Origin: Clostridiales bacterium
GTDB lineage: Bacteria; Bacillota; Clostridia; Oscillospirales; Acutalibacteraceae
Length of the DNA stretch: 41,077 bases
NCBI GenBank assembly: GCA_024697575.1
Contig: JAILFM010000015.1
Location: 1-41,077 of the forward strand
Reading direction: 5' to 3'
The notes under the pieces were generated by a model that did not search any database, was not told the DNA's origin, and was given only the letters and a program-made list of their open reading frames with translations. Positions 5,707-41,077 of the stretch are shown piece after piece. Every line of letters starts with the position of its first letter. Position 1 is the stretch's first letter. A program made the translations under genes and the position numbers.

Positions 5707-6351
5707 ATGAAGCCTGTTAATGAAGAATTTTTCGGTTTAATAGAAAATTTCATACGCGACTACAAATCGGAATTCGACCGCTCGCCGTCTGTTCGGGAAA
5801 TCGGCTCGGCACTGAATATTCCAAAGTCAACCGCAGGGCGCTACCTTGCTATGCTGAAGGAACGCGGAGTGATTGACTATGACGGTCCCCGCAGTATAAA
5901 GACAATTGAAGAAACGCGAGCCGGCGGGGCGTTAAGCCTTGTCATGATAGGCGAAACCGTGTCATGCGGAGCACCGAAAGAAAGCGAAGGAACGTTTCGC
6001 GAATATGTCAGGCTGCCCGGCGCAATCTTCGGCAAAGGCGAAATGTTTATGCTGACAGCCGACGGCGATTCAATGATTAACGCCGGCATAAACAGCGGCG
6101 ATATGCTGATTTTAAAAAGAGAAAGCACCGCTCGCAACGGGCAGATTGTTCTCGCGTATGACCCGGAGTCACAGGGCATAACCCTCAAGCGCTTTTTCAG
6201 GGACGAAAAAAACAGAGAAATCATCCTTCACCCCGAAAATCCCGATCTTGAAGACATAAGGCTTAAAAATGTTCAGATTCAGGGCGTTCTTGTGAGCGTA
6301 ATCAAAAGAAGCGACAGCCTTGAAACAACCTATCCCCAAGGGTGGCGTTAA
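5707..6351 (+). CDS. lexA: LexA-like SOS repressor (winged HTH + S24 autoprotease)
   Basis: HTH PSVREIGSALNIPKSTAGRYLAMLKERGVI, catalytic Ser in GDSMINAGI, catalytic Lys in GITLKRFF, candidate Cys-Gly cleavage site in SCGAPKES. Confidence 0.88.
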   Translation: MKPVNEEFFGLIENFIRDYKSEFDRSPSVREIGSALNIPKSTAGRYLAMLKERGVIDYDGPRSIKTIEETRAGGALSLVMIGETVSCGAPKESEGTFREYVRLPGAIFGKGEMFMLTADGDSMINAGINSGDMLILKRESTARNGQIVLAYDPESQGITLKRFFRDEKNREIILHPENPDLEDIRLKNVQIQGVLVSVIKRSDSLETTYPQGWR

Positions 6352-6383: not shown

Positions 6384-6650
6384 ATGGCTAACGGATATCG
6401 GAAAGAATATGTCGACGCCTATGTTTTTCAGACCAGAGACGGCGTAAAATCGCTCAGGTTCATCATTTTGCCCGACGGCAGAAAGGTTGAAATTGACAAG
6501 GTTATCGACAAGAAAAAAGCCCCGCTGACAAGAGTCGGCTGCACCGGAGTGCGCTACACGGTGCTCATTAATCAACGGGAAAAATATATCTATGAGGACG
6601 ACACCGGCTGGTTTGTGGAAGCGTTCGGCTACGACGATTCGCCGTGCTGA
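6384..6650 (+). CDS. hypothetical 88-aa protein downstream of lexA
   Basis: Open frame 33 nt downstream of the lexA stop, same strand, AAAGGTGA RBS. Confidence 0.75.
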   Translation: MANGYRKEYVDAYVFQTRDGVKSLRFIILPDGRKVEIDKVIDKKKAPLTRVGCTGVRYTVLINQREKYIYEDDTGWFVEAFGYDDSPC

Positions 6651-6658
6651 TAAAGATC

Positions 6659-6824
6659 TAAGGAAACGCTGATTAAATCGAAGTGTTTAGAACGGCGAGC
6701 AGGTTTTTCGACTGATGAAGTCGAAAAATCACAGAAATAATTTGTTTATTTCAAGATTTGAGACAAAATCAGGCGGAAAAGATGCCGCCGTTATGAGTGC
6801 GGCGATTTAATCAGCGTTTCCCTA
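6659..6824. mobile_element. MITE-like non-autonomous element, full copy A
   Basis: 22-bp terminal inverted repeats with one mismatch (6659-6680 / 6803-6824), TA at both ends, internal hairpins, no ORF; near-identical copy at the window end. Confidence 0.8.
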
Positions 6825-6826
6825 AA

Positions 6827-7711
6827 TCACAAAACCACCAAAGCGACAGTGCCGGCAAAAGAAAGGGCGACGGCGGCAATCTCCTTTTTGCCCGGTTTAT
6901 TCGGCGTAAAAAAGCATATAATCGTTGACACTATCATAACGCCGCCGGTTATGAACGGACACTGAACCGATGCGGGCAGGTGGCTCAGCCCTATCAATGA
7001 CAGATAATTGCCGATTCTGGCAAGAATGCCGTAGCCGGATGAATAGGCGAGCGATTTTATGCTGAATTTTTGCTTCGGGTCCTTGTTAAGAAGAAGCCAA
7101 ACAGAGCAAATTGCAATACACAAAAGCGCAATCTGCGCAGAATAACCGGCGTCGCCGGCTTTCGGATAATCCGATTCGGTATAAAACTTTGAGATCACAC
7201 CGGACATACCGTTAAGTATAAAAATCCCGGCGTAATAAAGGATGCCGGAGCCTTTACCGTCCTTTTTAACGGTGAGAAACAGCGACACCGCAATCAGAAC
7301 AAAGCAGACAATTTTGCCCGCCGAAAGCTCTTCGCCCCAGAAAATTATCCCCGCCGCAAACGGCAGAGCCATACCGCCGAGCATGCTTATGACAGAATAT
7401 AGCGAAAGGTTGATTTTATCAAACGCTTTGATTGAACAAAAGACAAACAAAAGCGCATCCGCCGCGGCGGCAAGAGCCACAGCAAGCGAAAAAGGCGTAA
7501 ACTCAAACCTGAATTTATTGATAATAAGAAGAATAACAAGACCGACGGCATTCGCTTCAATGTTAAAGCGGATAACCGTGCGCGTTGAGGTGCCGTTCGC
7601 TTTTTGATAGCGTTCATTAAAAAAGAACATAAAGCTGAACATCACGACGGCAACCGTAACCAAACCGTAATAGAACATATCAGAAACCGATGTTAAGCGT
7701 CCTTTCCGCAA
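6827..7711 (-). CDS. EamA/DMT-family transporter
   Basis: 294 aa, about 10 hydrophobic segments, duplicated DMT-like architecture (FWGEELSAGKIVCFVLIAVSLFLTV). Confidence 0.72.
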   Translation of the reverse strand: MRKGRLTSVSDMFYYGLVTVAVVMFSFMFFFNERYQKANGTSTRTVIRFNIEANAVGLVILLIINKFRFEFTPFSLAVALAAAADALLFVFCSIKAFDKINLSLYSVISMLGGMALPFAAGIIFWGEELSAGKIVCFVLIAVSLFLTVKKDGKGSGILYYAGIFILNGMSGVISKFYTESDYPKAGDAGYSAQIALLCIAICSVWLLLNKDPKQKFSIKSLAYSSGYGILARIGNYLSLIGLSHLPASVQCPFITGGVMIVSTIICFFTPNKPGKKEIAAVALSFAGTVALVVL

Positions 7712-18038: not shown

Positions 18039-18070
18039 TAGGGAAACGCTGATTTTATCATCGTTCCCTA
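18039..18070. mobile_element. miniature copy B of the TA-flanked hairpin element
   Basis: TA-GGGAAACGCTGATTTTATCATCGTTCCC-TA; ends TAGGGAA/TTCCCTA perfectly complementary; shares GGAAACGCTGATT with copies A and D. Confidence 0.65.
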
Positions 18071-23549: not shown

Positions 23550-23584
23550 TAAGGAAACACTTCGATTTAATCAGCGTTTCCATA
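23550..23584. mobile_element. miniature copy C of the TA-flanked hairpin element (inverted left end)
   Basis: TA-A-GGAAACACTTCGATTTAATCAGCGTTTCC-A-TA; its reverse complement matches the first 27 bp of copy A. Confidence 0.7.
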
Positions 23585-40933: not shown

Positions 40934-41077
40934 TATGGAAACGCTGATTAAATCGAGGTGTTTAGAACGGTGAGCAGGTTTTTCGACTGATGAAGTCGAA
41001 AAATCGCAGAAATAATTTGTTTATTTCAAGATTTGAGACAAAATCAGGCGGAAAAGATGCCGCCGTTATGAGTGCGG
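40934..41077. mobile_element. MITE-like non-autonomous element, copy D (truncated by the window end)
   Basis: GGAAACGCTGATTAAATCG... 138/141 positions identical to copy A by hand alignment (40937-41077 vs 6662-6802); TA at 40934-40935. Confidence 0.8.

Follow-up and report, generated by a model that had tools for sequence, protein, structure and literature searches.

A non-coding palindromic repeat in a Clostridiales genome represents a new MITE family, very probably of the IS5 group

The window analysed here, a stretch of 41,077 nucleotides, is contig C120 of a draft Clostridiales genome (G000; 2.16 Mb in 179 contigs). In it, positions 5707-6351 encode a LexA-like protein (match to PF00717, E 1e-23), a small ORF follows downstream at 6384-6650, and an EamA-type gene in convergent orientation occupies 6827-7711. 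The space between the small ORF and the EamA-type gene is occupied by a non-coding element of 160 bp (6662-6821, plus strand), referred to here as copy A, which is palindromic nearly from end to end (GGAAACGCTGATTAAATCG...CGATTTAATCAGCGTTTCC) and which is supported by its copies in the genome, its fold and an alignment of copies. Its left terminal inverted repeat, GGAAACGCTGATTAAATC, covers 18 bp at 6662-6679 on the plus strand, and the inverse of these 18 bp forms the right terminal repeat at 6804-6821 on the minus strand; both are exact matches to the pattern, and this end is also found on IS5-family IS elements. The element lies between 4-bp direct repeats, CTAA being read directly at 6658-6661 on the left and at 6822-6825 on the right. 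The initial annotation had described at this place a structured 166-bp interval (6659-6824) devoid of ORF, located in the gap between lexA and EamA and bearing 22-bp terminal inverted repeats with one mismatch. The placement is borne out, the described interval stopping 2 nt short of the EamA stop; no ORF was found within it, and the repeats TAAGGAAACGCTGATTAAATCG and TAGGGAAACGCTGATTAAATCG indeed differ at one of 22 positions. The extent required revision, the mobile unit being the 160 bp of 6662-6821 with its CTAA duplications. The structured nature of the element is corroborated by its predicted fold, at -77.6 kcal/mol versus -34.9 +/- 4.2 in dinucleotide shuffles (z = -10). The Rfam scan of the window yielded no match at gathering score.

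A search of the genome itself showed the element to be present in about 40 copies, which are 93-100% identical and in many cases truncated by contig ends. The terminal 18 bp, with up to three mismatches allowed, gave 143 matches in this genome versus none for a reversed control pattern. The two copies reported initially are thus both real and belong to this larger set. The second one, at 40937-41077 on the plus strand, shows 97% identity and a left flank TTAT, and is incomplete as the contig stops there. It had been placed at 40934-41077 with 138 of 141 positions matching; our recount, 140 of 144 including the flank, is close to this figure. The window holds two further, shrunken copies. One of 29 bp (23553-23581, minus strand; flanks TTAA and ATAA) keeps both ends, joined at a GTTT microhomology that the left arm of the MITE shares with its right end, and the other, of 26 bp, is degenerate (18042-18067, plus strand; flanks TTAG and CTAA). 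No ORF of at least 70 aa spans a copy among the 27 copies examined. Because many contigs stop within the repeat, it probably contributes to the fragmentation of the assembly.

The duplication at the insertion site was evaluated on the 25 complete copies with both flanks present. Matching 4-mers were found on both flanks in 17 of them, with 7.0 expected, and none of 100,000 permutations reached this number. The flanking duplications are mostly CTAA or TTAG, and the outer bases of the 4-mer match across the two flanks (Fisher p = 0.003 for Y and p = 0.017 for R). In addition, two copies exhibit a perfect 4-bp duplication that lacks TA, namely CTTG/CTTG and CTTA/CTTA. On the basis of the matching 4-mers, the agreement of the outer bases and these two TA-less duplications, the target duplication is 4 bp long and YTAR-like. 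The TA recorded initially at the outer edges of copy A is there, and is present at both edges in most copies, but it constitutes the core of YTAR. In IS5, the YTAR duplication has been described as highly conserved (PMC10359306). The remaining 8 of the 25 copies have no perfect duplication, and three copies, flanked by CTAA at one end and by TTAG at the opposite end, may be recombinants or assembly chimeras. For one of these three, on contig C53, the first 20 bp of the contig are identical to the flank of a copy on C11. Since at least one imperfect copy at a contig start thus has a flank matching that of another copy, assembly chimeras are likely to be behind some of the imperfect duplications.

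Comparison of occupied and empty sites is consistent with insertion. In the case of the copy L011 on contig C140, a paralogous terminator region lying at a distance of about 0.7 kb is without the element and has the target only once, the filled site reading TTTATCTAA[MITE]CTAAAGCCCTTTTTCA and the empty one TTTATTTAAAGCCCTTTTTCA; the L011-type site is also empty in the genus member G420. For another copy, L005, three genus members have the orthologous gene with no element upstream of it. Any match to the element was obtained in only 9 of 40 relatives, mostly as short fragments, the best being a truncated copy at 93% in G012 and two copies at 84% in G013. A copy at 86% (L197) lies on a contig named uncultured Clostridiales RUG467, and the phage collection that was searched for the element gave no match.

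The identity of the mobilising enzyme can be approached through elements that carry the same ends. In GTDB genomes, GGAAACGCTGATTNAATC was found in at least 116 stretches from many phyla. Among these, a contig of Cupriavidus pauculus (L162) bears a complete IS, consisting of 1,208 bp with MITE-type ends between two CTAG, which encodes a 329-aa IS5-family transposase (NF033581, with PF05598 and PF01609; 350 bits for NF033581 versus a cut-off of 140) and carries an IS5-family annotation in plasmids. An Anabaena CRKS33 contig presents 24 terminal bases exactly as in the MITE and encodes a 331-aa transposase of this type, and Firmicutes CAG:791 has a 1,247-bp IS with matching ends in which the transposase frame is split. 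Among the matches listed, every full IS found with MITE ends (L162, L241 and L242) has an IS5-family transposase. Closer to the host, a protein search gave a match in 30 of 396 genomes of the order, and several IS copies examined in the family and order of the window have closely similar ends and YTAR flanks, the ends of the same-family copies (GGAACCACTGATT, GGAAACACTGAACAAATA) being similar to those of the MITE but not identical. The initial annotation rightly stated that the window contains no candidate transposase; in the whole genome, the sole trace of IS5 is a degenerate transposase fragment at G000:C53:180-377, which abuts a MITE copy. An intact IS5 element was found neither in this genome, a draft that may lack repeats, nor in 44 other genomes of the genus. 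The transposase of contig C56, the only PF01609 match in the family search of the genome, was rejected as a candidate, since it looks IS1182-like by sequence and is devoid of MITE ends.

We conclude with high confidence that the element is a non-coding MITE moved by an IS5-type transposase supplied in trans. Its recognition as a MITE, already proposed initially, is corroborated by the approximately 40 copies, the target duplication, the empty paralogous site, the absence at orthologous loci and the existence of IS that share its ends. It constitutes a new family among the IS5-group MITEs and, as such, a new member of an ordinary and known kind of element. From sequence comparison, the enzyme that moved it very probably belonged to the IS5 group, a reading favoured by the full IS5 elements with the same ends, the YTAR flanks and the degenerate fragment in the host genome. 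We propose that the IS5-type transposase would bind the 18-bp ends and excise or copy the element, which would then insert at intergenic YTAR sequences with duplication of 4 bp. The transposase would have come from an IS that either decayed later or is absent from the draft assembly; because no intact IS5 is present in this genome or in the 44 others of the genus, this partner IS can only be inferred. The MITE presumably derives from an IS that lost its internal part, and the family now appears to be inactive or nearly so.

The initial annotation had attributed the movement of the MITE to a TA-targeting transposase of the IS630/Tc1-mariner type, whose MITEs likewise have TA at the junction, and the TA found on both edges of most copies would be in line with this. 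However, the duplication is of 4 bp with agreement of its Y and R positions (p = 0.003 and 0.017), two copies, CTTG/CTTG and CTTA/CTTA, are duplicated without any TA, and the full IS elements found with these ends all belong to the IS5 family, both ends and transposases being of IS5 type; this attribution is therefore very improbable. The idea of a REP/ERIC-like palindromic repeat, spread by recombination or gene conversion without transposition, would account for an intergenic, palindromic and multicopy element whose 26-29 bp versions resemble REP, but the target duplications, the empty site and the ends common to full IS5 elements leave it with a negligible likelihood.

It could also be hypothesised that the repeat is a conserved intergenic RNA or a bidirectional terminator, multiplied as a functional RNA and not as a mobile element. 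The hairpin is highly stable, and in both the MITE and a second, unrelated family nested within it (described below) the mispairs of the palindrome are nearly all G.T and not A.C on one strand, so that the RNA of this strand folds about 14-21 kcal/mol better in the copies of this genome; changes on both sides were moreover observed in seven pairs of the palindrome. This asymmetry is nevertheless weak (small counts, with p of about 0.008-0.13 in the two families) and is not general in relatives with the same ends. With respect to co-directional genes, the insertions are not biased towards either orientation (about 3-4 sense versus 5 antisense), Rfam gives no match, the distribution in the genus is sporadic, with mostly short fragments in the few relatives that have a match, and the element is absent from orthologous sites. 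We thus regard a functional RNA as a highly unlikely origin of the repeat. Selection for an RNA hairpin was likewise not adopted as an explanation, given the small G.T counts, the lack of generality of the pattern and the absence of orientation bias.

The IS5-group MITE described here exists in several derived forms. A second MITE family, of 161 bp with ends GGCAATACCGCACAATT and 4-bp duplications that are mostly TTAA, is present at about 30 places in the genome (for example L073:1174-1336, which is G000:C67:9473-9635). A number of first-family copies harbour it at one fixed point near the apex of the hairpin, where a CAAG duplication surrounds it. Because the resulting compound of 325 bp is present at several different sites, it has probably moved as one unit by means of its outer ends. 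The flank with the degenerate IS5 transposase adjoins a simple MITE at G000:C53:1-186 and a compound MITE at G000:C123:1-230, and this common flank suggests an assembly chimera, a strain mixture or recombination. At the other extreme, about 12 copies of the first family, including the two in the window, are reduced to 26-29 bp but retain both ends. In several of the 29-bp copies the junction falls at the GTTT microhomology, which is what loss of a hairpin through slippage would be expected to produce. In Lachnospiraceae and relatives (L144, L158, L182, L194, L219, L326 and L330), solo palindromes of 27 bp are found that consist only of these same ends in two overlapping copies, often with matched YTAR flanks. 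In a family of 35-bp palindromes of Lachnospiraceae, which had the look of micro-MITEs, some copies form the end of an element of about 120-140 bp and others are solo 27-bp forms with matched flanks.

The MITE shares with bacterial MITEs in general (reviewed in PMC10969869) its short length, lack of coding capacity, inverted ends, target duplication, intergenic location, multiple copies and nested insertions. With the IS of Cupriavidus pauculus it has in common the 18-bp left end, 4-bp flanks of YTAR type and a 5'-GG terminus, whereas that IS encodes a transposase of 329 aa and the MITE is only 160 bp long, non-coding and palindromic throughout. In the literature searched, neither the sequence of the family, its host group nor the 325-bp compound was found, and a search with the end sequence as text returned unrelated matches only. 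The repeat is now assigned to a specific transposase family and the call of its target site is corrected. Elements of 27-220 bp with GGAAACGCTGATTNAATC ends, many of them with YTAR flanks, occur in Gallionella, Spartobacteria, Lachnospiraceae, Synergistaceae, Spirochaetes and others, but their interiors are unrelated to that of the MITE, except for the 86% copy L197 and, in part, L173. One set of IS5 ends common to MITEs of several bacterial phyla offers a simple means of recognising and naming such elements. A broader proposition would be that a cross-phylum pool of IS5-type MITEs is defined by a single short terminal sequence; its 26-29 bp forms, reduced to the two ends, would still be mobile, and the strand-polarised RNA hairpin of the long forms would be maintained by selection. 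We consider this combination unlikely. In Gallionella (L127, L134, L143, L184, L192 and L201), the elements with the same ends measure 131 bp and recur within and between genomes, and in L127, the only one with flanks read, the element lies between two CTAA.
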